Source: a virus
Length of the DNA: 30,624 nucleotides
IMG/VR virus record: IMGVR_UViG_3300048066_000360
Coordinates: 1-30,624 of that record
Strand: one strand, 5' to 3'
Numbering within the stretch: the first letter of the stretch is position 1; every line of letters starts with the position of its first letter. The position numbers were made by a program, and so were the translations under genes. Below the pieces are notes generated by a model, which ran no database searches, was not told the origin of the DNA, and worked only from the letters and a program-made list of their open reading frames with translations. This document shows positions 338-20,471 of this stretch, piece after piece.

Positions 338-909
338 TATTCTTCAAATTTTACAACATAATTAGCAGCCACACGTTTCTTTAGTTGTGTCGGTGTACTT
401 GCATGATATAGTTCACTTGGAAATATAACAACTCGACCTTTACGTGGTTCTACTTTGTTAACAATATTATACGATGATTCGTCGTGTTCTAAATTAGGAT
501 ATTTTATATCTGTAAACACTGTAGGATTATCACCGTCTGTAACATAATATATAATAGAATGCCAACCTGGCTCGTGTCTATCTGCATGTACAGGATGATT
601 CAACCCATCTTCGTATAGTGGAGTATACATTAATGTATTTACTTTACATCGCTGTATACTAATAATTTTTCGGCTAAGTTCCTTTTCAATAAAGTACAAA
701 GGAACATTTAGTAACGGCCAAAGATATGTTCCGTCACCTTCATAAAATGCGGCATGTACTAGTTGATGTTCCTCAACTTCGCCTTTTCTAAGTTGTTTTC
801 CTCTACCGTATGTATGATCAGAATATTGCCACGGGGTGTCCACATGCAACATTGCATTTTCAATTTCATCTACTAGCCTTGTAGGAAATATATTATCAAG
901 GATTTGCAT
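337..909 (-). CDS. 2OG-Fe(II) oxygenase superfamily protein
   Basis: 190-aa protein of the double-stranded beta-helix 2-oxoglutarate/Fe(II)-dependent dioxygenase family (prolyl-4-hydroxylase/AlkB-like fold). The facial triad is visible: H108-A-D110 in [13 protein letters not shown], and the distal H169 in ELYHAS. R179, ten residues further on, fits the 2OG carboxylate ligand. The length is typical of the short stand-alone phage versions. The substrate cannot be read from the sequence; protein hydroxylation and nucleic-acid or small-molecule oxidation are all possible. It starts with an ATG overlapping the clamp-loader stop (TAATG), and its own stop overlaps the ferredoxin start in the same way. 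This places an iron-dependent oxygenase directly next to an iron-sulfur electron carrier. Confidence 0.88.
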
Positions 910-1823
910 TAAAGCGAAGCCAATCTAATAAGTGTTGCTGCTAAATTAATCTCCGGATCTGCAACTAGAGTATGATCTACTAGTCCTTGTTTAATTACAA
1001 GTACAGCTCTGTCCTGCTGTGCATTGTCGCCGAACAGTTCAATGTTGTCATACAACCATCGATAAATTTCTTCCATCTCTTCAGGACGTACAGCACCACA
1101 AAGTAACTTACGTGCTTCTTGAATTTTACCTGCCTTAAACAATTCAACCATGTCAAGTTTCCAATCAGCTTCGCCTGTATCGCCTTCATTAGGCTTTAGC
1201 AAACTGTTGTCTTGTACATTCATTTGTACTGTGTTAATGCATTTACGCAAGTCTGGATATGTTGCTTTTACATATGTATCTAGTGTATCCAAATCAGGAG
1301 TAACACCTTCAGTAATAAGTATTTCAGCGACTCGAGCTGTGAACTCAGTTTGGTCAATTTTAGCAATGTGGAAACCTTGACACCTACTATGCAAAGCGGG
1401 AATAACACGATTTGGATAGTTACAAGTAAGAATGAAACGAGCAGTAGTATGATACTCTTCCATAACACCACGCAACGCCGCTTGAGCGTTTGGAGATAAG
1501 TAGTCAGCCTCATCTAATAATACAACCTTAAATTCCCCAAATGGAATCATTTGTACAAAGTTTACAATTTTATCACGTACATCATCTACTGAGTTTGTTC
1601 GCGATGCGTTTATTTCAAGAATATCTAATTCCTGTATTTCAAGTTCATTGAACAATAATTTTGCAAGTGTTGTCTTACCAATACCTGCATTACCACTAAA
1701 CAATAAATGTGGAATAGTTTTTTCTTTAATCCAATTATTTACCTGGTTACGTTGTGCTTCGTCGCGAAATACATAACCACTTACCGTCTTAGGACGATAC
1801 TTCTCTACCCATAATTCTTTCAA
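909..1823 (-). CDS. 44: Sliding-clamp loader large subunit (T4 gp44-like)
   Basis: AAA+ ATPase subunit that opens and loads the sliding clamp (gp45) onto primer-template junctions during phage replication. Visible landmarks are the RFC-type N-terminus LWVEKYRP (4-11), Walker A GNAGIGKT (44-51), Walker B VVLLDEAD (100-107), a sensor-1 asparagine in TCNYP (near 135) and the SRC arginine-finger motif (146-148). The 304-aa length is close to T4 gp44 (319 aa). No ATG precedes the conserved N-terminus, so the start is a TTG, supported by GGAG six bases upstream. It is the first gene of an operon with the 2OG oxygenase and ferredoxin, behind a consensus sigma70-like promoter at 1848-1876. The small subunit gp62 is not in the window. 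Confidence 0.96.
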   Translation of the reverse strand: MKELWVEKYRPKTVSGYVFRDEAQRNQVNNWIKEKTIPHLLFSGNAGIGKTTLAKLLFNELEIQELDILEINASRTNSVDDVRDKIVNFVQMIPFGEFKVVLLDEADYLSPNAQAALRGVMEEYHTTARFILTCNYPNRVIPALHSRCQGFHIAKIDQTEFTARVAEILITEGVTPDLDTLDTYVKATYPDLRKCINTVQMNVQDNSLLKPNEGDTGEADWKLDMVELFKAGKIQEARKLLCGAVRPEEMEEIYRWLYDNIELFGDNAQQDRAVLVIKQGLVDHTLVADPEINLAATLIRLASL

Positions 1824-1847: not shown

Positions 1848-1876
1848 ATTTTAACATTTTTTATATGATTTGTCAA
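1848..1876 (-). promoter_or_regulatory. sigma70-like promoter for clamp-loader operon
   Basis: TTGACA (1871-1876) and TAAAAT (1848-1853) are separated by exactly 17 bases on the minus strand, 25 bases upstream of the TTG start. The -35 box contains the TGA stop of the upstream exonuclease gene. This arrangement suggests recognition by host RNA polymerase, giving early or middle expression. Confidence 0.75.
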
Positions 1877-2409
1877 CGCTCAATGTTTAATTCTTTGTAA
1901 GCAACCTGGATTGCTTTTGATTGATAGTAAGCATCTGCTAATGCATTGTGTAAATCGTTTTGTATTGCTTTACGTGGATCTTGTTTACAACACCCAAAAA
2001 GTGTTCTAGAATCCCGTATTTGCCAGAAGTTCCACGGAATAGGTCTTCCGCCTTGGCGGAACATGTCTTCCATAATGGTATAGTCAAAACCATATCCTTG
2101 TCCCCAAAATGTATCAACACCAACACTAAACTTGCTAATCTGTTTTAAAGCCTCATCTACGCTGACGGCTCCGGTTTGATCAAATGCTTCGTTACGTATC
2201 TGTTCATCTTGTTTACCCCACCACTCTATTGTGTCATCACTTGCACTACGACCTAACTTATCTTGATCTTCAATGCAAATTTTAATATAAAACTCTGAAT
2301 GTGGTTCGTCGTTTGATTTAGGATCAAACTTAACGCCACCTAAACTTAAAACTGTAGCACTTGGTTTTGTGTCAATTGTTTCAAGGTCAATAGAAGCATG
2401 TATGCTCAT
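1873..2409 (-). CDS. dexA: DEDD-family 3'-5' exonuclease, DexA / RNase T-like
   Basis: 178-aa exonuclease of the DnaQ/RNase H-like DEDD superfamily. The motifs are in order: D8-L-E10 (Exo I), D109 in GYGFDY (Exo II) and H154-x4-D159 in HNALADA (Exo III, DEDDh type). The conserved TIEWWGKQ stretch matches the Rv2179c-like/DexA subgroup. T4 DexA (227 aa) degrades single-stranded DNA, and related bacterial enzymes act on RNA, so the natural substrate is uncertain. The ATG overlaps the TGA of the upstream 53-aa membrane microprotein (ATGA), with AGGAG 11 bases upstream. It is probably transcribed from the promoter at 2590-2618. The gene symbol follows T4 by family resemblance only. Confidence 0.8.
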   Translation of the reverse strand: MSIHASIDLETIDTKPSATVLSLGGVKFDPKSNDEPHSEFYIKICIEDQDKLGRSASDDTIEWWGKQDEQIRNEAFDQTGAVSVDEALKQISKFSVGVDTFWGQGYGFDYTIMEDMFRQGGRPIPWNFWQIRDSRTLFGCCKQDPRKAIQNDLHNALADAYYQSKAIQVAYKELNIER

Positions 2410-2567
2410 TTTTTAGTATTCTCCTGGCCAATTCCGCCAATAATTAAAAACAGGTATAAAATAGGCCAAGCCCATCCTATTAATGATCCAGTAATATGCA
2501 GGTACATTAATACAATTCCGGTTAACCCCATTGTACCCAAACCTGTTAGTTGTGTTGGTAATTTCAT
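2406..2567 (-). CDS. 53-aa membrane microprotein
   Basis: Short gene of 53 codons plus stop. The protein begins MKLPTQLTGLG and has two hydrophobic stretches (about 13-30 and 33-47), with aromatic residues between them (GWAWPILY) and a polar tail ending in TKK. It is probably an inner-membrane protein with two helices or one long hairpin. An excellent AAGGAG site (2575-2580) lies seven bases before the ATG, and a consensus promoter lies directly upstream. The TGA overlaps the exonuclease ATG by four bases (ATGA). The function is unknown; its position suggests co-expression with the exonuclease. Competing reading frames on both strands lack a ribosome binding site and read as non-coding. Confidence 0.82.
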   Translation of the reverse strand: MKLPTQLTGLGTMGLTGIVLMYLHITGSLIGWAWPILYLFLIIGGIGQENTKK

Positions 2568-2578
2568 AAAAAAACTCC

Positions 2579-2610
2579 TTAATGCTTACATTATACTGTA
2601 TAAGCATTAA
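2579..2610. repeat. Perfect inverted repeat around the -10 box
   Basis: TTAATGCTTA (2579-2588) and its exact complement TAAGCATTAA (2601-2610) flank a 12-base spacer. The spacer contains most of the TATAAT of the minus-strand promoter. The right arm, read on the minus strand, runs into the AAGGAG ribosome binding site. It could be an operator, or an RNA hairpin formed only in read-through transcripts. Confidence 0.7.
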
Positions 2611-2618
2611 AGAGTCAA
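2590..2618 (-). promoter_or_regulatory. sigma70-like promoter for microprotein/exonuclease
   Basis: TTGACT (2613-2618), a 17-base spacer and TATAAT (2590-2595) on the minus strand, just after the mazG stop. The start of transcription would fall near 2583, inside the downstream arm of the inverted repeat. Confidence 0.8.
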
Positions 2619-2637: not shown

Positions 2638-2943
2638 TTAAGAAAGTTTGGTTAGATCTGCTTCTTTAATAAACACACCGTCTACCATCATTCCTTTACG
2701 ATCTTTAATATCGTCATAGGCTACGGAAAGACATTCTTCCATTGTAATACCGTTTCTAGTCATGATGTTAATTAGTACAACCATCATGTCTCCAATATCG
2801 TCACGAATATCTTTTCCTTTGCAGATGTTATCACTTAGTTCACCTGCTTCTTGTATCAACTTCATATACTGATCTTTATCAGTACTTCCGTCAATTAAAT
2901 TACGGTCATGATGCCATTCGGCAATTTTTTCTACGTAGTTCAT
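2638..2943 (-). CDS. mazG: MazG-like nucleotide pyrophosphohydrolase
   Basis: 101-aa all-alpha NTP pyrophosphatase. Metal-binding residues are visible as E32-A-G-E35 (QEAGEL) and D49-x2-D52 (RDDIGDMMV), the usual ExxE...DxxD pattern of single-domain MazG. MazG enzymes hydrolyse (d)NTPs. In marine T4-like phages the gene is a common auxiliary gene, once thought to lower ppGpp and later shown in a cyanophage to prefer deoxynucleotides. It follows the GroES-like gene by three bases (TAGTAAATG), so it is probably read from the late promoter at 3829-3836. The next sigma70-like promoter starts 20 bases after its stop. Confidence 0.92.
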   Translation of the reverse strand: MNYVEKIAEWHHDRNLIDGSTDKDQYMKLIQEAGELSDNICKGKDIRDDIGDMMVVLINIMTRNGITMEECLSVAYDDIKDRKGMMVDGVFIKEADLTKLS

Positions 2944-3828: not shown

Positions 3829-3836
3829 TATTTATC
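3829..3836 (-). promoter_or_regulatory. T4-type late promoter (GATAAATA)
   Basis: GATAAATA followed by C on the minus strand, close to the T4 late consensus TATAAATA. It lies 23 bases upstream of the ATG at 3806, with AGGAGA between. The TAA inside it is the stop codon of the upstream DnaE-like gene. Confidence 0.65.
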
Positions 3837-4362
3837 TAAGGAACTCGCGCCAATCCAGGTCAAACTGAATTGAATTGATCTTGTGTACGCCTATTAAGTA
3901 TAACACATAACTTGCTACAGAACTACCTCTACCTACACCCCATACAATATCATTTTCACGCATAAAGTCTACTAGATAGATCATATAGCGTAATAAATTG
4001 TGCATATCACGTTCGCCATATGCTTCCATTTCTTCCCATATACGATCTTGTACGTGTTGTGGGCAGGGTGTTTCTGCTTTGCCTAGTACATATTCATATA
4101 CATTAATGTCTTTGTATTCATCAGGCATAAACCATTCACTTTGACATACACCGTCAAAAGTCTGTTGATCTACTTCTAATGGAATATACTTTTGTAGTTT
4201 GTTGAGGCCTTGTTCTTCCATAGCCTTATTAAACTTATCTACATCGTCGTTTGCATCGCACAAAACCACATGGACTTTATCCACATGACCTGTATAGATC
4301 ATATCGACTAAATCTTTGTTAGAGAATCGTGGTATACCGAGTTCGTCAGTTTTCATAAGCAT
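3832..4362 (-). CDS. Truncated DNA polymerase III alpha (DnaE)-like protein
   Basis: 176-aa protein whose C-terminal part (about 120-176) closely resembles the segment of bacterial DnaE that leads into the palm domain. LVDFMRENDIVWGVGRGSS (130-148) corresponds to the DnaE block that ends in GPGRGSGAGS. IQFDLDWREFL corresponds to DnaE LEFDLLFERFL. In DnaE the catalytic PDFDVDF follows a few residues later; here the gene stops right after FLR. The protein therefore keeps the nucleotide-binding GRGS loop (144-147) but lacks all polymerase aspartates and cannot be an active polymerase. The N-terminus (GIPRFSNKDLVDMIYTG) is not recognised. No good ribosome binding site precedes the ATG at 4362; M3 is an alternative. 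The stop lies inside a late promoter motif. Family assignment is by motif reading only. Confidence 0.65.
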   Translation of the reverse strand: MLMKTDELGIPRFSNKDLVDMIYTGHVDKVHVVLCDANDDVDKFNKAMEEQGLNKLQKYIPLEVDQQTFDGVCQSEWFMPDEYKDINVYEYVLGKAETPCPQHVQDRIWEEMEAYGERDMHNLLRYMIYLVDFMRENDIVWGVGRGSSVASYVLYLIGVHKINSIQFDLDWREFLR

Positions 4363-5248: not shown

Positions 5249-5256
5249 TATTTATC
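5249..5256 (-). promoter_or_regulatory. T4-type late promoter (GATAAATA)
   Basis: CGATAAATAG on the minus strand, 21 bases upstream of the ATG of the 208-aa structural protein, with an AGGAGA ribosome binding site between them. It sits in the short gap after the stop of the 918-aa gene. Confidence 0.65.
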
Positions 5257-8792: not shown

Positions 8793-8800
8793 TATTTATT
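8793..8800 (-). promoter_or_regulatory. T4-type late promoter (AATAAATA)
   Basis: TAATAAATAC on the minus strand, 22 bases before the 244-aa structural gene. Its first bases are shared with the TAA stop of the giant fibre gene. The -10 element has one mismatch to TATAAATA. Confidence 0.5.
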
Positions 8801-11800
8801 ATAAGCGACCAACTACAACTTCTACAGTGCCTTTGCCGTCATCTTCTTTTGTTCCTACAGCCTTACCAATTACAGTACCCATCTTAGGATCGTTATCAAC
8901 AATAGCATATCCAGGAACAGCACTAGTTACAAGCATGTCACCTTTAGCAACAGTACCAATTACTTTACAAGGAACACGCCCTGTTAGTGCTAATGGAACA
9001 ACAGTATCGCCTTCTAACTGATTGTTCATTAAGTATGCAGGATCAGTTGATACAACACCTGCTACTTTACGATCACCTTTTATTGTACAAGCAGTAATTT
9101 CTTCAGCGCCGCCAAATACAACAACAGTACCTGGTTCGTATGCTTCGTCACCTACGTATTTCTCTGCCAAGTCAGCGTAGTTTGCTGACGATGCTGTAGC
9201 ATTAAGCGTTTGAGTACCAACATTAAAACTAAGTCCTCCGCTGTCTGTTCTTGCCGCATTATTACCAGTGTTACTACCAACTAATACAAGATTAAAACTA
9301 CCAGTAGTTGGTTCTGAACCTACAGCGTTAACAGCAAAATTAGCTGCGTTCGTTGCATCTGAAACACCACCTGAGCTTGTAGCATATCCTTTACCTTCAA
9401 CAAAGTTTTTAACAGCAGCCGCTGTTAAGAATGAAGTATCGTCGTCGACTAAACTTGTACCATCAGCTGCAACTTCAGTGCCTGTTTGAACAGCTGCTGC
9501 ACCAAAGTCACTAACTGTCAAGTTGGGCAATCTAGCACTATCAAATGTACCAGCATTAATTTTACTTGCATTTAAATTTGGTATTCTATCAGTACCTAAT
9601 GTACCAGATGTAATTTTACTTGCACCTAAACTTGGTATTCTATCAGTACCTAATGTACCACTGTCAATAGTAGCTGCATCAATTGTGTCCCATACTGGAG
9701 CTGCTCCACTGGTAGCATCACCAGTCATTGCTAGGAATTTTTGTGTTGTTGTAGTGTTTGCTCCTACATAACTAGTTGTGCCTGTAGCACTTTGGTATGG
9801 TACTTCATTAGCTGCACCGTCTTTCAAACTAGTTGCTGTATCAGCATTACCAGTTAAGTCACCAGTTACATCACCTGTAATATCACCTGAAATATCACCT
9901 GTCACTGGTCCAACAAATCCTGCTGCATGTATTTGTCCAAACGCTTGGCCATTAGCACCAAGGTCCACTGATTCATTTGAATCAGGTAAAATACTTGCAT
10001 GAGTTATAACTGCATCAGTACCAATTTGGAATTTTAATGCAGATGCATTAGTTCCACTAGCTGTTAAGAAGTCAAACGTAGATTTTTCACTACCAAGTGT
10101 TACATCAACAGCTCTAACAACCAGTTCAGAATTAACACCACCGTCAACGGCAGTTTGTGAATTGTCCATCTTAAAGTGTAATGCACCTAAGTAGTCTTCA
10201 TCAGCTGGTGAAGTTGTGTCATGGAAGAATTCAATTATATTATCACCAACACCGTTGTTTTCTTGTGTATTTCTAATTTTAATATGTGGTGTGTCAAGTG
10301 TACTTGTAATAGTAAATGTATCAGCAGCAACATCATCACCTAAGTCAAAGTCTCCGCTAACAGTTAAGTTACCGTCAATTACAGTATTTCCTGTAACATC
10401 TAAATCAGTTCCAACATACAATTTCTTAGCAATGCCAACACCACCGTCAATTATTACTGACCCTGTTGTTGAACTTGATGCATCAGTTGTATCGTTAACA
10501 ACAAGAGTACCATCAATATCTGTGTTACCACTAGTTGCTGTTACATTGAACTTACCACCTATGTCAAAGTTGCCTCCAACGTATAGTTTCTTAGCAATAC
10601 CTGCACCACCATCTACAATCAATGATCCTGTAGATGTGCTAGTTGAATCAGTAGTTAAGTTTGCATTCAATGTACTATCTGCATTTAGTGCGCCACTAAC
10701 ATTTAGTATGCCAGTAACATCAACTTGGTCGTCAATTGCTATTGCTGTAGTAAGAGTGTTATTTCTTTGTACTTGGAATTCAAGTTTACCATCTTTACTT
10801 GCAGTTGCAATATCTGCTATTGTTGATTTTATAGCACCGTATGTATGTAAAGTAGCAATTGGTCCTGCATCATCGTTGCTTCTAAAGTTAATAGTACCAA
10901 CACCGTCTGCGTTTGCAACACTGCTTGTTTTCTTAATAATGTCTAAAGTATAACCTGCGGAGTCTGCATTAGTTCTTTGCAAGTCAACATCAGTAATGAT
11001 AGTTGAGCCAATACTTAATGTATCATCGCCACTACCAAGTGTTGTATTACCTTCAACAGTAAATGCATTTTTAACTGTGGTTGTTCCTGATAATGCTGTT
11101 AGTACATCAACATCTCCTGATCTCAGTACAACTCCTGTTGAATCTGCTAGTAACGCATTCTTACCATTAGCAATAATTGCTGTTTGACCAGCAGTTGTAT
11201 ATGGACTAATATTACCTAATGCAATACCTGAACCAGTTGCTGTTAGATCGTCTGGATCTTGAATAAAGTTTGTAAACACCCAATCAACAGCCAAGTGTGG
11301 TTTACTATTTGCTGGTGTATTTGCAGATGCGTTCTGTTGGAACACACTAGCATGACCGTTTTTGCCTGTTGCTGGTGAAGTAACTTGCTCTACTCTTATA
11401 CCAATATCACCAATGTCAACACTTGCTGTTGGAATCTCAACTATACTTTCGTCAACTTGACTAGCACCAGGAGTAACACCTGATATGCTCATTGCTAAGT
11501 TTTCGTTTGGTGTATAAACGTCTAAGAATGTGCTACCGCCTGCTGAACGTGTATCTAATGCTCTACGACTGTCAACTAACAATCCTTTAACATTAATAAA
11601 TCCTTCAGTATTTGCTGAAACAAATGTTAGATCGTTTTGATCGTTATTATCAAGTGTACGTACTAATTGGTTACCTTCACCTGCTTTAGTAATCTGTGTA
11701 GTACCATATACACCGTCAGCCATTTTAACTAGTGCTTCACCCGAACTTGAGAATTGAGTTGCACTTACAATAGTTGCTGCAGATGCATGACTGTCTGCTG

Positions 11801-14800
11801 TTACTCCTGCAAGTGTTCCTGTTCCTGGGAAAGTACTAGTTGCATTTATAACAATAATTTTATTTTCACTTGTAACAGCGCCTTGTACAGTTGCACTAAC
11901 ACCACCTGAACTTACAGTTGCACCGTTTGCAACACTAACAAGTCCTTCGGTTTGTATTACCCAACCACCAACTTCTGTAATTGTGCTATTTGCAAAATCC
12001 TTATCCTGTATTGCTCCGCCTAAATCAATAATTTGATCAAAACTAACAGCGTATGGTATACCGTCTGTATTGTATGCAGGGTCACCAATGTCACCTCTAC
12101 CAATTACAGTTTTTTCTGGTATATCTTGAATCTTATCAAATGTTATACCTCTATCTTTAACATTAACAAAACCAGTTTTTTCTATTGTAGTAATAGTTCT
12201 AGTTGAATCAACTGGTGTTCCTTTTATGCTTGAAGTCTGTTGTACAGCGTTAGCACTTCCAGGTAAGTTAAATGTTGTTATTGGTGTAATAAAGCATGTT
12301 GTTGCTCCACCTGTAACAAATGTATCACTTGTTCTAACTTTAAGAGTAGTACTATTAATAACTTTATCAATGTAACCAATATTAGAACCTTGTGTTATAA
12401 TATCGCCTACGTTTGCACTAACAGATCCTGTGAATACAAATACTTGATCTTCAGCAAATGCATCTGCAGAGAACGCAGCAATACCTTTGTTTGCTTGACT
12501 TACTCTTCTACCATTAGTAGTAAAGTCTTCAAAGTCGTCACTGTCCTGTAATACAGGAGCCTTTTGCATTAATAGTTTTTGTTGTTGTATATCTGCGTTT
12601 GTATTAACATCTGCATCTAGTAAACTTTCTGCTTGATATTGTAAGTTAACACTTGTAGCATCTTCTGATCTAGTTACTGTTATATTAATATCACTACGTG
12701 ATGCATCACCAGGACTACCAGTTTTGCTTTCACTTGCGTTTGCAACTTCAACCATTGGATATACAGCAAGACCATCTCTACCTTGTGTAGTATTTCTTGA
12801 TACATTTCCGTTTGATATAGTTTCTGCTTGGAAGTCTATAGGATCTCCACTTACACCGTCTGCAATAGCTGCTGTGCTAGTAACCAATGCTGATGTTGCA
12901 ACTACAGTTTCACTACCGCCCGGATTGTTTACAAGCTCAATAGCAGTACCATTAAATGATCCTGTTACTTCTCTTAGAATCATCTGTGTAGCACTTGTTT
13001 TACCTGATCCAACTACTGTTTGTGGATGTAATACATAACCTTGTGCGCCTGTTGAAGGTTGTCTTAACAGTTGTCCTCTTACAGCAACAGTTCCAGTTGC
13101 ATTTAAGTTAACCATTGTTAATGGTAAAACTGTATAAGTTATAACTTGTACATCAAGTCCTGATGCTGTGTCTGTACTATTTTCACCATTGTCAAATTTG
13201 AATGTATCACTAATGTCAACAATACGTCCTGCACTATTAGTATCTTCACCATATATAACATCGTTTACTGAGAACATAGTTCCTGCAACGTACTTGACAT
13301 ATATTTTCTTTTTACCTGTTAGTACAATTAAATCACTTTGACCATTTTGGTTATTAAAATCTGTTTGATAAAAACTTACGTTACGAAGATCTTCAAATTC
13401 ATCATTTGCAAATATTCTGTTATCAATGTATTCTTTGGTTGCCGCATCAGTATCTGCAACAGGACGTTTTAGTAAAGTAATTCTACCATTTGTCATGTTC
13501 AGTGTATGTGTAGTTTCTCCACCTACTGTTACTGGTGTTAACTGTGGATTAGTTGCACTCATTACCGTTGTAAGTGGTGCAGGATCTGCTACGTTAAATT
13601 CATCAAAGCCTAAACGTCTATTAATGTAATCTACTACAGCAACTTCTGTAGGAACATTTTTAAGTTCTGCTGTTGACTGTGTGAAACTACTTGTAAACTT
13701 ACTAATAATTTCACCATCTTTAAATCCAAGTCCGTCTAGTCCTGAGATATTAATTTGTGCTGTAAATGATATTGTACCAGTACCCTGGTCAACTGTAAAG
13801 AACTTACCAACTCTAAAGAATCCATCTTCGTCTGTTGATGCAAAGAACACACGCCCTTTGTTTCTTTCCCAAACTTGTGCTTTTGTTACTGTTGGATCAC
13901 TTGTTACGATTGCTGTCTTATCTGAAGCAGGTTGTCCAAAGATAATATTTGGATAGTTAGATGTATTAAATCCACCTGTACCAATGTTACTAAAGTCATG
14001 TCCTGTTGCTCTACATAATGAAATGTTAACAGTAATCTCTGCACCTTCACCTGCCGGAACACCAATTGCAAGGTTAACATTATCACTTTCGTTACCAAGA
14101 CTTAATGTATCAGCAATACCTGTAGTAGGTGCTGTTTCGTCTGGATCATAATATTTGTTACTTACTGAATTACGATCAATTTCTAAATACGCAAATCCTG
14201 TTGCATGTGAATTAGGTTCTCCTGCTTCTCTTGTTCCAATAGAACCAGTAGATGTTCCTGCTCCATCGTGATATGCAAGAATTTTATGTACTCTATCTTT
14301 CCATGCAAATATCATATCTGCATTTTGAATTCTTACTGTAGACTCTGTACCTAATGCTGGAATAGCAATGTATCTATCACCTGGTGTACCACCAAACGAT
14401 TCTTTAAATCCATTTGTTGTTAAGTAACTTAATTTAACAGCGCCGCTTCCTGCTAGTCCGCCGACACTACTAAAGTTTCCGTCCCCTGCGGCATCGTGTT
14501 CAATGTTTCCACCACCTACAGTAAAATCAGTACCGTTCCAGTCTTTAATATAAAGTTCTTCTGTACCTACGCCTTCTGATTTTGTTATTGTACCTGATGC
14601 AGAACCTTGTCTAACAACAGATCCTTCTGCTATTGTGCCAGTTGTAGCACTTGCAAGTACTAGTTTAAACTGTGCTTTATAGTTATCATACTCAACTCTT
14701 TGTCTAATATAATCATAGTTACTATCAAATGTAAGTATGTTTTGACCATCTGGTAAAGTTGCTTCACCTGCATTATCAAAAGTACTAATTGGAGTTACGT

Positions 14801-17800
14801 CAAAGTTAATAGAACGATAAGTGTTTTCTGGCTGTTCTTCAAACACAACTGCTGTTGAAGGTCTAATTGGAACAGTCTGTACATTGTCTAAGATAAACTT
14901 AGCTCTTGCTCTAATACTTAATGATTCACCAGCAAACAATGGCTTTGCTAGTCCGCCTGTACTTACTGATTCATCATTAGTTGAGTTAGAGAATGACAGT
15001 TTCCATACAGCACCGTTTTCACCAATTAGTGGGTTGCCACCAATTTCAGTTAAAAATACTTTACCTGATCTTGCTGTGTATGATCCGCCCCATCCTGTTC
15101 CGTTTACTGGTGTAGTTAATGCTGAATCACTATACAGTTCTACATATCGTTTATCATTAGTAGTTCCGCCTGTAGTTGTGCTAACTTTAGCATAATACGT
15201 TCCATTTAATTCTGTTATTCCTGAACCGTCAACAATAGTAATTGCATCTTCGTCTATAAAGTTATGTCCAATAGTTTCAAGTACAACAGGGTTTGTTTTT
15301 GTTACACCAATAATAGTTTTACGACCTGCTTTATCTAAGTTAGTTTCAATACTTGCAATAGTTCTACTTGTAGTAGTACCGTCAGTGTATATTGTGTCTC
15401 CAACACTAAACTGATCTCTATTTTCTGGTAGTGTTACATAGATTGTACTGTTATTAACACCATCTTTAATTGGTCTAGTTACTCTACCTAAAGGAGCCGT
15501 TGCTGTTTGTCCAGTTCCTGCTGTAATAGTTACTCTTGTGTTGTAAGGAACATTAGTTAATGCTCCGTTTAGAGTAAGTTTAACTTCGTTAACGCCCGGA
15601 ACACCGTCTGCTGATTGTGCATCAGTAACAGATACAACTTCAAATCTACTTGATGATGTTGCTGTACCGCCTGCATCTTGTATCACAGCATTGTTACCTA
15701 ACGAACCTGTATTATACGATGAACCGTTTAATGTTGTAGTCAATGATGCGTCAGTGTAAAGTGTTAAAGTTCCTGTTGATGGGCTAGGGCCAACATATCG
15801 AATTCCGTCTAGTCCTGGATTAGCACCACCACCAGTAGTAGGAATATTACTTTCAGATACAAGTACTCGTTGTCCTTCTACAAATCCATGAGCTTCAACA
15901 TTTAATACAACAGGATTAGATGCTGATATACTAGCAATCTCTTTTTCTTCGTTATATGTTACATCAATTTCACCTTCTGGTAAAGGAGCAAAGTCTGTAT
16001 CGTATGCATATACAAATGTTTGTAATGCGTTAGCGTTTGCACTAGCACTTGGATTCACATATACTTTACCTGTTTGTGAAGTATTAAATGCTAATGAACC
16101 AGTTTGTGCAACCTCATTCGGGTCACCGCCTGCAGCAACTAGTCCAAAGTTACCATAAGCGTTTGATCCATTTAACGATCTAATCTCTGAACCGTTATTC
16201 GCATAATAAGCTGCGTGACAGTAGTATGTAAACATACTAACCATTTCAGATATACCATTGTTAGTACATAATAGTCCGTAACCTAAATCATTAACTTGCG
16301 TAAAGTCATTACCAAGCATAGATCTGTTACCAGCTGTTTGAAGTACGATTGGATAATTTTCTCCACCAATCCAACCTTGTCCTTCATCATTTGCATCTGG
16401 GTTTGAATTTTTATCAAGTATAAGTTCTGCTGTACCGTTAGTAGGGTCATAGTTTCTAATAGCATTAACTTGGTAACGTACACCGTTTACATAGAATGGT
16501 GCAGGTAGTTGAGGACGTCTTGCAAATAATCCAAGTCCTACTCCGTTACTATTAACTTGTTTAGAATCTCTTCTACTTCTTACAAATATTTCAAATGGTG
16601 AATTAACACCTGCACTTGTAATGTTGTCAACAATTTCTAATGGCATGTTACTTACAAAACCATCAACAAACATACCACCTCTAAATGCTTGTTTGTTTAT
16701 TGATTGTGAGAAACTTGATCCTGTTTGTATGTATGGTGATTTAGTAAGTATCTGTCCATCTGGATCAAGTACACACATAAATCCACCATGACCTTGTACA
16801 GTCATATTACGTAAGATAGTTGCGTCATTCATTAAGAAGACATCCATATCTTTATTGTGTTTAGGTGGATTGTATTCGCTGTTAAACGCAAATACTATAA
16901 TATTTAATAATCCAGAAACAATAGTACTTGTTCCTGATTCAGCAAGTTGTGACGTTGTTACTGCAATATCCCATGCTGACGCCGCCTGTCTTGAACTTGG
17001 AACACTTGGAGTTCCAACTGGTGTTGCTGATGCACCAAGTAGTGCCTGTGCAATGTTACCAATTTCTAAAATAGCCGCTGAAGTTATAACTTCTTGACCT
17101 ACTTCTACAGCACCTGCATAGTATCTTCCTTGTGCTTCAAGTGACTGATCAACAAGACCTTTTTCTAAGTCAAATGCCAATGCATCAACAATAAGTCCTA
17201 AGTCTCTTGCACATTTTGGACCATATGTAAATGCAACTGCCGCTGGTACCGTAGCTGGAACACTATTTGCTCCTTTGCTTACTCCGCCTACTGAAAGTTC
17301 GCCACTAGTATCAAATATACCATCTGGTCCTACAATAATTACTGAATTTCCAGTACTATCACTTTTTACTTTACCAGTTACTCCGCTTCCTGATTGTGTA
17401 ACTGTATCGCCTCTGCTAAATGTTACGTTGCCTGTTAGTGTTAGTTCAACTTGAGTGTAATCACCAAAGCCACCATTGTTTAAATTATTAGTTGACGATT
17501 CATCTAAGAATAGTAAAACTTCTTGTACAATAGCATCTCTATTTTTTTCTAAGATAGAAACAGCATTAGTATAGCCTCCTGCATTAACTACACTGTTCGC
17601 CTGAGTGTTAATTGGGCGTCTTGGGTCAAGGCCATAATGATAACCAAAGTTTGTATCTCTTGAATACTGTGTTGGCGCTGTTGTTAAGTATGTTCCGCTT
17701 TGTACAGAATTATTAATTGAAATATTGTTGTTTACTACAGTATCAAATTGAACTACATCAGCATATCCGTTTCCTGTTTCGCTTGGTGGAACACCGTTAT

Positions 17801-20471
17801 TAGTTACTGGATCATACCCGTCAAAATATTGTACAACTATAGTGGTTGAATTAGTTGCTTTTTCTTGTACAAAACCAATTGCTGTTCCTGTTGCAACAGT
17901 TTGTGTAACCTTATCACCTACATTAACAGTTACCGCTTGCGTTAATGTTATTTCTACTTCACCTTCAATTTCTACACTATGATTGTGTAGTGTCATATTA
18001 TCAAAGTAGTTGTCTCTGTGGAAATATTGATTAGCCCATCTTGACTGTGATACACGATTTCTTGGTCGAATGTGTGTACGTCTAAATTCGTCACCTTTAA
18101 TGGAAACGTTTGCTGGAACACGTAACGGATAGTCCTCGTAGAATATACCAGTTTCTAAAAATACTGTAATATTTTGTTGACTTACTTTATTACCAAACTC
18201 AAGTATATCGCCTGCTTCATAAGTTGGATCATCTGCTGTAGCAACACCCGGATCAGACCTAGCAATAAATTCTATTGGTTCTTCAAGTTGAAGTTCAATT
18301 TGGTCATTGCCTGCTCCACCTAGTTCGTCGCCTCTATAATAGTTTACAATTCTTGATACAGCGCCTGACTTAGATCCTGTAATAACTTTACCTGGAATTA
18401 AATCTGTGTTAGTTGCTTTTCCTTGCCATACATTACCGTTACCACCGTTATCAACTTCAATTACGTATACAGAACCTTCTTGTAATACTGGTGCACCACT
18501 TATACCGTTATTAATAATGCTTTCAATAATATCAAATAGGTCGCCTACTCTTGCAATAGCATCTGCAGGAGCCGGTGTGCCTGGTGAAACAACATTTTGT
18601 TGTACGTCAGTTTGATAAACACCTGGGTTACCTGTGCCACCTTGCCATGGCGAGTTAGTTAAAACATACTGTCTAGTAATTTCTTCAACTTTTGCAATTG
18701 ATGCAAGTGTTTGTTCTTTCTGTGGACCAATAGCAATAGCACCGCTGGCATTACTATAGTATCTTAAACCTGCTTGTCTTGCAAGTTTGTTTGCGTTAGT
18801 ACCACTAATAACGTCAAGTTTTAAACTTTCGTAAATTAATCCTACATCACGTTTACAAATATCTTCGTCGTATGTAAAGTTTTTCCATTTAATTAATTCT
18901 GCTTCTGCTGGAACATTAGGGTCTAAACTAACAGCTGCATTGGCTGCCGCAATCTGTGCATTAGTCCAAGCAATAACTTCTTCTTGAACAAATGCTTTGT
19001 TATTGTCCATTAATGCTTTAAAGTTTGCTGTCTGTTGTCCGTTATATGTTGCTGGAACTTTAAATCCTAAATCGTTTGTGTTTCCACTTAATACATGAGT
19101 TGGAACAGTATCGTCAATAGTAATGGTCTGCATATATGGACCAGGTTCCAACTTACTTGTTTCAATAATTTCTTCTGCTTTTTGTAATGCAGCATTCAGT
19201 GTACGATAAGCATAACTTAATGCTCTACCTTCTTTACCTGCCGGTGTATTAACTTGGTTATCGTCACCTTGTAAACTAACAAACAAGTTTACATTACTTG
19301 CATAACTTGTGTTGTCTACATAAAATTTAGTAGCGGCTTGTAAATCTTCTAAGCCTGTTGTAATGTTTGCTAAGTCACCTGGGTGCTTGTCAAGGTAAAG
19401 TGTACCATCCATTTGGTCACCTTGACGTCTAAGTGCAGCCTCTCTAGGCATTGCTTCGTTAGCAAGGAACTTACCGTCTAGTATACTTGGTTGATATTCT
19501 GCATCAACTAGTGATTGTGTTCCTGAACCAGTACCTGCTTGGAAACTGATCTTTCTATTTGCTGTAGCATTTTTTGCAGCCTCAGCATTTTCATAAAATT
19601 CTAGTGATGTTGCACTTGCAACTCTAACATAAACTGGATTTAGATTTGTAAGTGGTTGAGCAACGGCACTTGATGCCGGTGTTGCTGTTGCACTTGTGCC
19701 TGTAGTTTCGTATCTAAATGGTAAACCATTAGCACCACTATCAAGTCCGTGACCTGCTGGAACTGTAATTAATGTTCCGTCTACAGTTCTACCAGTAATA
19801 TTGGCAACGCCTGCTGTGAAACTATCAATTGTAAATGAGTAATCTTCTGTAAAGATTTGATCTTCAGTACGAACTCTAATTTGTGCGCCAGTACCACCAC
19901 CAGTTGACTTTAGATAATTGGTATCTGCAAATCCTTTTGATATTGCAACACTGTCAGTTGTATATCCTGCACCATCATGTGCAGCATTAAGAACGGATAA
20001 CTTACTTTCAATGTCATTAAGACTGGTTGGCATACCAGCAATAATATTTCCTGAAGCATTAATACCACCACCAGTTGAATTAATTTTTGGTTTTTCGTCT
20101 TCTTCTAATTGTCCACCAGCCGCTGTTACAACAATGTAACCGCCTTGTGTCAAACTAAATTGTACAGTATCATCAACAGATGCATCAAGGAAACTGTTAC
20201 TAACTAATTTTCTAAATTCTAACTTACTACCTTCAGCAGCAACGTCTACTACTGGTAAAGTAGGTCTTGAAAATGTACTAGGATTCTCTTGGAGTTGTGT
20301 TAGTGTTGGAGTATCACTAAATTCAGTAAATGATATCGAACCACCTTGTCCAAATACAGCATATAGTTGGGTAAAATTATCATTTACCTTTCTAAACGCT
20401 TCTCTAATACTATCGCCGGTTCCGTCGTTACCTTCAACGCCGATATTAATGTCTTGTTTACCTTGTGCCAT
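8799..20471 (-). CDS. Giant tail-fibre / virion adhesion protein, 3890 aa
   Basis: One uninterrupted 11.7-kb gene. The N-terminal module (GNDGTGDSIREAFRKVNDNF, 14-33) is shared with the 244-aa protein and is probably the virion anchor. Two copies of a helical block containing CKRDVGLIYESLKLDV (about 490-620) and CARDLGLIVDALAFDL (about 970-1150) follow. Between them is a pectate-lyase-like beta-helix segment (ITVFLETGIFYEDYPLRVPA) near 765-790. A long Ser/Thr/Gly-rich beta region follows. Near the end are two copies of GSLIVDGGAGIAKKLYVG, TGD/SGD tetrapeptides and three 18-aa GTLGTDRIP-type repeats. The last about 130 residues (SANYADLAEKYVGDEAYEPG onward) resemble the fibre C-terminal domain annotated as peptidase G2/IMC autoproteolytic type; that assignment is moderate. 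It starts one base after the Fe-S carrier stop, so both share a late transcript. Confidence 0.88.
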   Translation of the reverse strand: MAQGKQDINIGVEGNDGTGDSIREAFRKVNDNFTQLYAVFGQGGSISFTEFSDTPTLTQLQENPSTFSRPTLPVVDVAAEGSKLEFRKLVSNSFLDASVDDTVQFSLTQGGYIVVTAAGGQLEEDEKPKINSTGGGINASGNIIAGMPTSLNDIESKLSVLNAAHDGAGYTTDSVAISKGFADTNYLKSTGGGTGAQIRVRTEDQIFTEDYSFTIDSFTAGVANITGRTVDGTLITVPAGHGLDSGANGLPFRYETTGTSATATPASSAVAQPLTNLNPVYVRVASATSLEFYENAEAAKNATANRKISFQAGTGSGTQSLVDAEYQPSILDGKFLANEAMPREAALRRQGDQMDGTLYLDKHPGDLANITTGLEDLQAATKFYVDNTSYASNVNLFVSLQGDDNQVNTPAGKEGRALSYAYRTLNAALQKAEEIIETSKLEPGPYMQTITIDDTVPTHVLSGNTNDLGFKVPATYNGQQTANFKALMDNNKAFVQEEVIAWTNAQIAAANAAVSLDPNVPAEAELIKWKNFTYDEDICKRDVGLIYESLKLDVISGTNANKLARQAGLRYYSNASGAIAIGPQKEQTLASIAKVEEITRQYVLTNSPWQGGTGNPGVYQTDVQQNVVSPGTPAPADAIARVGDLFDIIESIINNGISGAPVLQEGSVYVIEVDNGGNGNVWQGKATNTDLIPGKVITGSKSGAVSRIVNYYRGDELGGAGNDQIELQLEEPIEFIARSDPGVATADDPTYEAGDILEFGNKVSQQNITVFLETGIFYEDYPLRVPANVSIKGDEFRRTHIRPRNRVSQSRWANQYFHRDNYFDNMTLHNHSVEIEGEVEITLTQAVTVNVGDKVTQTVATGTAIGFVQEKATNSTTIVVQYFDGYDPVTNNGVPPSETGNGYADVVQFDTVVNNNISINNSVQSGTYLTTAPTQYSRDTNFGYHYGLDPRRPINTQANSVVNAGGYTNAVSILEKNRDAIVQEVLLFLDESSTNNLNNGGFGDYTQVELTLTGNVTFSRGDTVTQSGSGVTGKVKSDSTGNSVIIVGPDGIFDTSGELSVGGVSKGANSVPATVPAAVAFTYGPKCARDLGLIVDALAFDLEKGLVDQSLEAQGRYYAGAVEVGQEVITSAAILEIGNIAQALLGASATPVGTPSVPSSRQAASAWDIAVTTSQLAESGTSTIVSGLLNIIVFAFNSEYNPPKHNKDMDVFLMNDATILRNMTVQGHGGFMCVLDPDGQILTKSPYIQTGSSFSQSINKQAFRGGMFVDGFVSNMPLEIVDNITSAGVNSPFEIFVRSRRDSKQVNSNGVGLGLFARRPQLPAPFYVNGVRYQVNAIRNYDPTNGTAELILDKNSNPDANDEGQGWIGGENYPIVLQTAGNRSMLGNDFTQVNDLGYGLLCTNNGISEMVSMFTYYCHAAYYANNGSEIRSLNGSNAYGNFGLVAAGGDPNEVAQTGSLAFNTSQTGKVYVNPSASANANALQTFVYAYDTDFAPLPEGEIDVTYNEEKEIASISASNPVVLNVEAHGFVEGQRVLVSESNIPTTGGGANPGLDGIRYVGPSPSTGTLTLYTDASLTTTLNGSSYNTGSLGNNAVIQDAGGTATSSSRFEVVSVTDAQSADGVPGVNEVKLTLNGALTNVPYNTRVTITAGTGQTATAPLGRVTRPIKDGVNNSTIYVTLPENRDQFSVGDTIYTDGTTTSRTIASIETNLDKAGRKTIIGVTKTNPVVLETIGHNFIDEDAITIVDGSGITELNGTYYAKVSTTTGGTTNDKRYVELYSDSALTTPVNGTGWGGSYTARSGKVFLTEIGGNPLIGENGAVWKLSFSNSTNDESVSTGGLAKPLFAGESLSIRARAKFILDNVQTVPIRPSTAVVFEEQPENTYRSINFDVTPISTFDNAGEATLPDGQNILTFDSNYDYIRQRVEYDNYKAQFKLVLASATTGTIAEGSVVRQGSASGTITKSEGVGTEELYIKDWNGTDFTVGGGNIEHDAAGDGNFSSVGGLAGSGAVKLSYLTTNGFKESFGGTPGDRYIAIPALGTESTVRIQNADMIFAWKDRVHKILAYHDGAGTSTGSIGTREAGEPNSHATGFAYLEIDRNSVSNKYYDPDETAPTTGIADTLSLGNESDNVNLAIGVPAGEGAEITVNISLCRATGHDFSNIGTGGFNTSNYPNIIFGQPASDKTAIVTSDPTVTKAQVWERNKGRVFFASTDEDGFFRVGKFFTVDQGTGTISFTAQINISGLDGLGFKDGEIISKFTSSFTQSTAELKNVPTEVAVVDYINRRLGFDEFNVADPAPLTTVMSATNPQLTPVTVGGETTHTLNMTNGRITLLKRPVADTDAATKEYIDNRIFANDEFEDLRNVSFYQTDFNNQNGQSDLIVLTGKKKIYVKYVAGTMFSVNDVIYGEDTNSAGRIVDISDTFKFDNGENSTDTASGLDVQVITYTVLPLTMVNLNATGTVAVRGQLLRQPSTGAQGYVLHPQTVVGSGKTSATQMILREVTGSFNGTAIELVNNPGGSETVVATSALVTSTAAIADGVSGDPIDFQAETISNGNVSRNTTQGRDGLAVYPMVEVANASESKTGSPGDASRSDINITVTRSEDATSVNLQYQAESLLDADVNTNADIQQQKLLMQKAPVLQDSDDFEDFTTNGRRVSQANKGIAAFSADAFAEDQVFVFTGSVSANVGDIITQGSNIGYIDKVINSTTLKVRTSDTFVTGGATTCFITPITTFNLPGSANAVQQTSSIKGTPVDSTRTITTIEKTGFVNVKDRGITFDKIQDIPEKTVIGRGDIGDPAYNTDGIPYAVSFDQIIDLGGAIQDKDFANSTITEVGGWVIQTEGLVSVANGATVSSGGVSATVQGAVTSENKIIVINATSTFPGTGTLAGVTADSHASAATIVSATQFSSSGEALVKMADGVYGTTQITKAGEGNQLVRTLDNNDQNDLTFVSANTEGFINVKGLLVDSRRALDTRSAGGSTFLDVYTPNENLAMSISGVTPGASQVDESIVEIPTASVDIGDIGIRVEQVTSPATGKNGHASVFQQNASANTPANSKPHLAVDWVFTNFIQDPDDLTATGSGIALGNISPYTTAGQTAIIANGKNALLADSTGVVLRSGDVDVLTALSGTTTVKNAFTVEGNTTLGSGDDTLSIGSTIITDVDLQRTNADSAGYTLDIIKKTSSVANADGVGTINFRSNDDAGPIATLHTYGAIKSTIADIATASKDGKLEFQVQRNNTLTTAIAIDDQVDVTGILNVSGALNADSTLNANLTTDSTSTSTGSLIVDGGAGIAKKLYVGGNFDIGGKFNVTATSGNTDIDGTLVVNDTTDASSSTTGSVIIDGGVGIAKKLYVGTDLDVTGNTVIDGNLTVSGDFDLGDDVAADTFTITSTLDTPHIKIRNTQENNGVGDNIIEFFHDTTSPADEDYLGALHFKMDNSQTAVDGGVNSELVVRAVDVTLGSEKSTFDFLTASGTNASALKFQIGTDAVITHASILPDSNESVDLGANGQAFGQIHAAGFVGPVTGDISGDITGDVTGDLTGNADTATSLKDGAANEVPYQSATGTTSYVGANTTTTQKFLAMTGDATSGAAPVWDTIDAATIDSGTLGTDRIPSLGASKITSGTLGTDRIPNLNASKINAGTFDSARLPNLTVSDFGAAAVQTGTEVAADGTSLVDDDTSFLTAAAVKNFVEGKGYATSSGGVSDATNAANFAVNAVGSEPTTGSFNLVLVGSNTGNNAARTDSGGLSFNVGTQTLNATASSANYADLAEKYVGDEAYEPGTVVVFGGAEEITACTIKGDRKVAGVVSTDPAYLMNNQLEGDTVVPLALTGRVPCKVIGTVAKGDMLVTSAVPGYAIVDNDPKMGTVIGKAVGTKEDDGKGTVEVVVGRL
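9578..9660. repeat. Direct repeats in giant fibre gene (18-aa unit)
   Basis: A 29-bp identical sequence occurs at 9578-9606 and 9632-9660, spaced 54 bp apart. It encodes consecutive GTLGTDRIP-type 18-residue units, and a third, diverged unit (GTFDSARLP) lies next to them. The near-identity at DNA level suggests recent expansion or a substrate for slippage or recombination. Confidence 0.75.
9845..9910. repeat. Tetrapeptide (TGD/SGD) repeat region
   Basis: Short tandem units of 12 bp (plus-strand pattern tcacctg/tcaccag with variation) encode VTGDISGDITGDVTGDLTGN. This is a typical fibre-shaft repeat; a shorter version (GNLTGNVTGNV) occurs in the 244-aa protein near 8230-8270. Confidence 0.65.
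10398..10645. repeat. Two copies of a fibre repeat (about 60 aa)
   Basis: Copies at about 10566-10645 and 10398-10490 encode STSTGSLIVDGGAGIAKKLY and SSTTGSVIIDGGVGIAKKLY respectively, each followed by a YVG...G(N/T)T(V/L)xxDG(N/T)L strand pattern. The copies differ mainly at third codon positions, so they are an older duplication than the 18-aa repeats. Confidence 0.65.

Follow-up and report, generated by a model that had tools for sequence, protein, structure and literature searches.

A conserved RNA hairpin spanning an early-type promoter and a Shine-Dalgarno sequence: a candidate lock against read-through in a marine phage genome

Introduction

Several genes of phage T4 (e, soc, 49, I-TevI/II/III and segB) and mobE of Aeh1 have their Shine-Dalgarno (SD) sequence hidden in read-through RNA (PMC3014915, PMC2988022). 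The switch has been established experimentally for T4 gene e (PMC3014915), and the genes controlled in this way are, according to a review, all late genes carried on long early or middle transcripts (PMC2988022). The locus described here resembles the T4 e/soc group in that the SD is predicted to pair with upstream sequence in long transcripts only, and in that a promoter within the structure or immediately upstream of it would make an RNA without the 5' strand. It departs from the group in its promoter and its geometry. While the gene's own promoter is typically late in T4, here it is of the form TTGACT-17-TATAAT, and the late motif GATAAATA lies upstream instead. The -10 box sits in the loop, the -35 box shares bases with the anti-SD, and the stem borders on a T-tract.

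A second group of relevance is the promoter early stem-loop (PeSL), cassettes of which Arbiol in 2010 and Comeau in 2014 are said to have described in RB49, phi1 and other T4-type phages. Our element shares with PeSLs a strong sigma70 early promoter that overlaps a stem-loop. In the RB49 sequence that we examined, several early promoters likewise have their -10 box looped out by a short stem, so this geometry is not new. The RB49 stems are, however, short and leave the SD free (fraction paired 0-0.2), whereas here the stem runs through both the SD and the -35 box. PeSL cassettes are characterized by many similar copies per genome through which genes are shuffled; strong TTGACT-class matches number one in each of 27 of 39 records and do not look like a dispersed repeat. 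The element is predicted to work in the manner of T4 e, its appearance is that of a PeSL whose stem has been lengthened across the SD, and it fits each definition in part.

Protection from impinging transcription is known as well from IS10 and IS50, in which transposase is controlled by the terminal inverted repeats of the transposon: read-through RNA folds over the gene start, and RNA from the gene's own promoter is made without the upstream arm. Neither a transposase nor transposon ends were seen at our locus, which sets it apart from these elements. We put at roughly three in four the probability of the following reading: where late virion genes give way to a replication operon, a sigma70 promoter of early type has an RNA hairpin built into it, which acts as an SD lock with probable partial termination.

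Anatomy of the element

The window, by which we mean the whole stretch of 30,624 nucleotides analyzed, is a linear virus record of 30.6 kb with its main genes on the minus strand. The repeat, promoter, SD and ATG are all on that strand as well, in the order (2618 to 2565) TTGACT CTTTAATGCTTATACAG TATAAT GTAAGCATTAAGGAG TTTTTTT ATG (Table 1). A preliminary description of this DNA had reported a perfect 10-bp inverted repeat enclosing the -10 box of a TTGACT-17-TATAAT promoter. Computation bears out both features: the arms at 2579-2588 (TTAATGCTTA on the plus strand) and 2601-2610 are exact reverse complements, and the promoter scores 11/12, the best match within the first 20 kb of the window, tied with that at 1876-1848. 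The downstream arm does reach AAGGAG, as had been described, but the overlap of two bases given for it was an understatement, for the pairing spans the entire SD. The full hairpin is larger than first reported, with 18 pairs running from 2616/2573 to 2599/2590; its predicted fold has an energy of -21.7 kcal/mol (z = -7.9), which none of 200 shuffled sequences equaled. Rfam and tRNA scans gave no matches. Two perfect 10-bp inverted repeats are seen in the window and about 0.8 would be expected, so the 10-bp repeat alone is unremarkable. What counts is the 18-pair stem, its placement over promoter and SD, and its conservation.

Table 1 Features of the element and its surroundings (positions in the window)
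Feature	Position	Strand	Remarks
-35 box TTGACT	2613-2618	-	Last bases double as part of the 5' arm (anti-SD)
-10 box TATAAT	2590-2595	-	In the hairpin loop apart from the final T, which is predicted to pair; spacer of 17 nt
5' arm of the 18-pair hairpin	2599-2616	-	Overlaps -35 box and spacer; present only in upstream read-through RNA; from fold and covariation
3' arm of the hairpin	2573-2590	-	Holds the entire SD; predicted fold
Anti-SD ACTCTTT	2609-2615	-	Pairs with AAGGAGT; from sequence, covariation and fold
Shine-Dalgarno AAGGAG	2575-2580	-	AGGAG invariant in the A2 set
T7 tract	2568-2574	-	Between SD and ATG; terminator tail if the hairpin forms; T-enrichment in relatives
Start codon ATG	2565-2567	-	
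Predicted transcription start	2583	-	Inferred, 7 nt past the -10 box, inside the 3' arm
TM53, first gene of the unit	2406-2567	-	53 aa, likely membrane protein
Second gene, 3'-5' exonuclease, Rv2179c-like (PF16473)	1873-2409	-	
Third gene, gp44-like clamp loader	909-1823	-	Additional promoter of its own
Clamp-loader promoter TTGACA-17-TAAAAT	1848-1876	-	Strong; without hairpin
MazG-like gene	2638-2943	-	Directly upstream of the element, co-directional
GATAAATA, candidate T4-type late promoter	3829-3836	-	Reads toward the element
GATAAATA, candidate T4-type late promoter	5249-5256	-	Before a 208-aa gene, toward the element; kept in most relatives

Conservation and covariation of the hairpin

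The first gene downstream, TM53, belongs to a family of 246 IMG/VR members. From the best 80 of these 246 relatives and the window, with promoters located by their -35 and -10 boxes only, we obtained 46 distinct upstream regions; they were chosen by protein, and pairing was not a criterion. The spacer measures 17 nt in 45 of the 46, with the -10 box in the loop. Each 5' arm was folded with its own 3' arm and with those of other regions. The mean energy is -18.1 kcal/mol for own arms and -10.5 ± 0.5 kcal/mol for exchanged arms, and 0 of 200 swaps reached the observed value. Where members of the TM53 family lack their own promoter (L199, L224, L226, L228, L249 and L262), the element is absent too.

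The stem was compared pair by pair in a set of 33 elements (A2), whose rows were hand-picked and are biased toward strong hairpins, and for which controls were run alongside. In this set 92.7% of stem cells are paired, compared with 76.3% after shuffling of partners and 40-58% after sliding of the arms, and 68 cells are changed on both sides, against 22.9 ± 3.5 in the controls. Reconstructed by parsimony on the gene tree, double changes from one pair to another number 34 over 34 taxa; with only about 160 bases behind the tree, this count is rough. A larger table of 77 elements had been pre-filtered for pairing and for this reason takes no part in the covariation argument, which uses sets chosen with no regard to pairing (for the arm swaps, the parsimony count and the tally of G-U and A-C cells) and the controlled A2 set. 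Where the stem crosses the SD, the SD side is invariant and the opposite side changes only from C to T, by which G-U pairs are retained. G-U cells number 28 and A-C cells 4, a strong difference to which no formal probability is attached because the cells are not independent.

Dozens of relatives thus keep the hairpin by matched changes in both arms. The preliminary description had named the retention of the promoter without the repeat as an outcome that would count against its reading, and this outcome is seen in a few lineages only (L198, L229, L243 and L255), which have the promoter with little or no hairpin; the 335-kb MAG contig of L352 is likewise without a strong hairpin. The lock is therefore not essential everywhere. 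PA5oct, among the best annotated clamp-loader matches, has no comparable element near its clamp loader. The matches listed in an initial pattern scan were mostly ordinary strong promoters without a hairpin, and they form a useful negative group.

Predicted accessibility of the Shine-Dalgarno sequence

We computed the energy needed to open the SD in read-through RNA, with 60 nt of upstream sequence included, and in RNA begun 7 nt past the -10 box. In the window the predicted costs are 10.2 and 1.6 kcal/mol, respectively. Across 45 upstream regions of relatives the predicted means are 10.6 and 2.2 kcal/mol, and the difference is at least 3 kcal/mol in 40 of the 45. The exact start makes no difference to the result: with starts placed anywhere between 2586 and 2580, the SD is predicted to stay open. 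The same calculation for T4 gene e returns 9.1 and 1.2 kcal/mol, nearly equal to the values found here. The preliminary description had proposed that read-through RNA folds over the ribosome binding site and that RNA from the embedded promoter leaves it open. Three lines support the proposed switch: covariation, the arm swaps, and a predicted SD accessibility in agreement with T4 gene e.

Genomic context and direction of transcription

In those examined relatives that have the element and enough flanking sequence, the element lies between the virion-structural and the replication blocks, co-directional with both, while the genes flanking it on both sides vary. The clade of the window has GroES and MazG or other variable genes, then the element, then TM53, the exonuclease and the clamp loader, with some members lacking TM53 or the exonuclease. 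In a second clade (L117, L170, L145 and L178), the element precedes a set composed of the PolIII-alpha fragment, GroES and clamp loader, and in L170, L145 and L178 it follows directly after a gene of the 208-aa type.

The genes themselves offer some observations of their own. TM53 has the core GxGTxGxTGxxLM...TGWAWPxLY...GQEN and finds no match in PHROG, Pfam or annotated phages; it is encoded as well by the 335-kb L352 contig, which is binned as Ca. Neomarinimicrobiota. The PolIII-alpha fragment is in the window a stand-alone protein of 176 aa (3832-4362, minus strand) that matches the DNA polymerase III alpha NTPase domain (PF07733), and its place close to GroES and the clamp loader is conserved in almost every relative with sufficient flank. 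A single ORF of 3890 aa (8799-20471, minus strand) in the structural block probably encodes a giant tail or fiber protein.

Among octamers found upstream of genes, GATAAATA shows the highest enrichment in four relatives (G007, G013, G016 and G015). Behind it stand tail tube, baseplate/tail-fiber, virion and endolysin families, with 4 of 10 genes having no assignment. Behind TTGAC-type promoters stand radical SAM, HNH endonuclease, exonuclease, methyltransferase, ribonucleotide reductase and kinase genes, and none of the genes examined there belongs to a structural family. On these motifs and gene functions we assign the former class as late and the latter as early. In most relatives a copy of GATAAATA lies about 2.6 kb upstream of the element, and often there is another some 1.2 kb upstream. 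Late transcription is therefore expected to enter the element.

This arrangement bears on the comparison with T4 e and soc that the preliminary description had drawn. The SD-hiding switch is supported, but the timing looks different: because the internal promoter is of the sigma70 type and the upstream block carries T4-type late promoters, the order looks reversed, with an early-type promoter inside and late-type read-through from outside. Judged from the motifs, the early-type promoter appears to be insulated from late read-through.

Proposed mechanism

Polymerase arriving from upstream would transcribe both arms. The read-through RNA would then fold into the 18-pair hairpin and hide the SD of the first gene of the replication block, and the hairpin with its T-tract would probably also terminate part of the transcripts. 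RNA from the embedded promoter, with a start that we infer to lie within the 3' arm, would be made without the partner arm and would present the SD open in a 16-nt leader. Since only read-through RNA has both arms, TM53 and the genes downstream would be translated mainly from their own promoter and would be off when late transcription enters from the structural block. A counterpoint is that the clamp loader has a second promoter, which is unshielded.

In dense phage genomes with gene blocks on one strand, late transcription must not re-express early genes. The element would provide the insulation without any protein, by a triple use of about 45 bases; strong compensatory evolution stands behind it, and the timing known from T4 would be reversed. 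It is compact enough for reuse as an insulated promoter part in synthetic operons, and it predicts silent read-through RNAs in phage RNA-seq. A broader proposition is one for which we see even odds: that in this lineage of uncultivated marine jumbo phages early promoters behind late genes carry the SD complement in the -35/-10 spacer, that some 45 nt there combine promoter, terminator-like stem, SD and late read-through lock, and that the T4 e switch is thereby reversed and early genes are shut off late, both in one fixed replication operon and at several further promoters in each genome.

Alternative explanations

The best surviving alternative, though an unlikely one, is that the hairpin is only the intrinsic terminator of the upstream block, with the promoter overlapped to save space and the SD overlap incidental. 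Across the 20 kb at the start of the window, a terminator scanner identifies this stem as the longest terminator-like one, and the literature treats the PeSLs of T4-type phages as motifs that combine promoter and terminator. The eight nucleotides after AGGAG hold on average 5.07 T in the elements compared with 2.35 in 151 ordinary AGGAG-ATG genes, an enrichment that makes a terminator role plausible; termination probably contributes to the effect. However, seven of the strong hairpins have at most four T in those eight positions (for example GGAGATCTC and GGAGAATCT), so that the hairpin persists even where the tail is missing, and the SD is still in the stem; hiding of the SD is thus what strong hairpins have in common. 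Moreover, a terminator would have no need of a stem that passes through the SD, and the RB49 hairpins end before it. We favor a joint effect in which hiding of the SD is constant and termination comes on top of it.

A perfect 10-bp dyad over the -10 box is a common operator position, and the preliminary description had considered the repeat as the DNA site of a dimeric repressor. The arms are confirmed, but their letters vary widely among relatives with pairing retained, hairpin promoters within one genome have differing arms, and the half-site letters expected for such an operator are not conserved among the relatives compared. The main evidence against an operator is the excess of G-U over A-C: an RNA hairpin made from this strand explains the bias, and a palindrome that a protein recognizes as duplex DNA, where G-T and A-C mismatches cannot be told apart, does not. 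The operator is accordingly disfavored, and we consider it very improbable.

Long paired stems of this size can also serve as cleavage sites or as protectors of 3' ends, and the 18-pair stem would suit an RNase III-type site or a stabilizer of the upstream mRNA with the promoter overlap secondary. The promoterless members of the TM53 family have no hairpin, however, and a -10 box held in the loop at a near-constant 17-nt spacing is unexpected for a processing site, which leaves this explanation marginally less probable still than the operator. Finally, a chance repeat beside an ordinary promoter, which the expected frequency of perfect 10-bp repeats might suggest, has a negligible probability, being refuted by covariation in dozens of relatives and opposed by the z score of the extended fold.

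Other hairpin promoters in relatives

Searched with a covariance model, 27 of 39 whole records, which range up to 275 kb, each give one strong element of the TTGACT class. The notion of one element per genome holds for this class only, as scanning of whole relatives revealed other hairpin promoters. Five large relatives, scanned directly, contain further SD-hiding promoters with unrelated arms, among them G007 +15775 (arms ACTCCTATGGTTA/TAACTATAGGAGT) and G007 -185708, which has a counterpart in G016. With the main element excluded, 10 of 84 promoters sequester the SD at MFE < -12, compared with 3.2 ± 1.6 after arm swapping, so that such promoters are only moderately enriched. At the loose threshold of MFE < -9 there is no excess over arm swaps in G007, G013, G015 and G010; pooled data and stricter thresholds exceed the swaps. 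Two of the G007 cases follow a tail-fiber-type block and an M15-peptidase/endolysin gene, and the others are not behind clearly late genes.

Two further arrangements were encountered. Between G007 +219448 and +230512 (L312-L313), some ten or more strong TTGACA promoters precede small genes; several of them have perfect stems around the -10 box with the SD (GAGGGC) outside, and the cluster resembles the PeSLs of T4-type phages. Near 115631 in G016:C1 (L334), the spacer CATAGCTATTTTTG pairs with the SD and the start codon in a strand ending GTAGGAGTAGCTATG, which is the same idea in another form.
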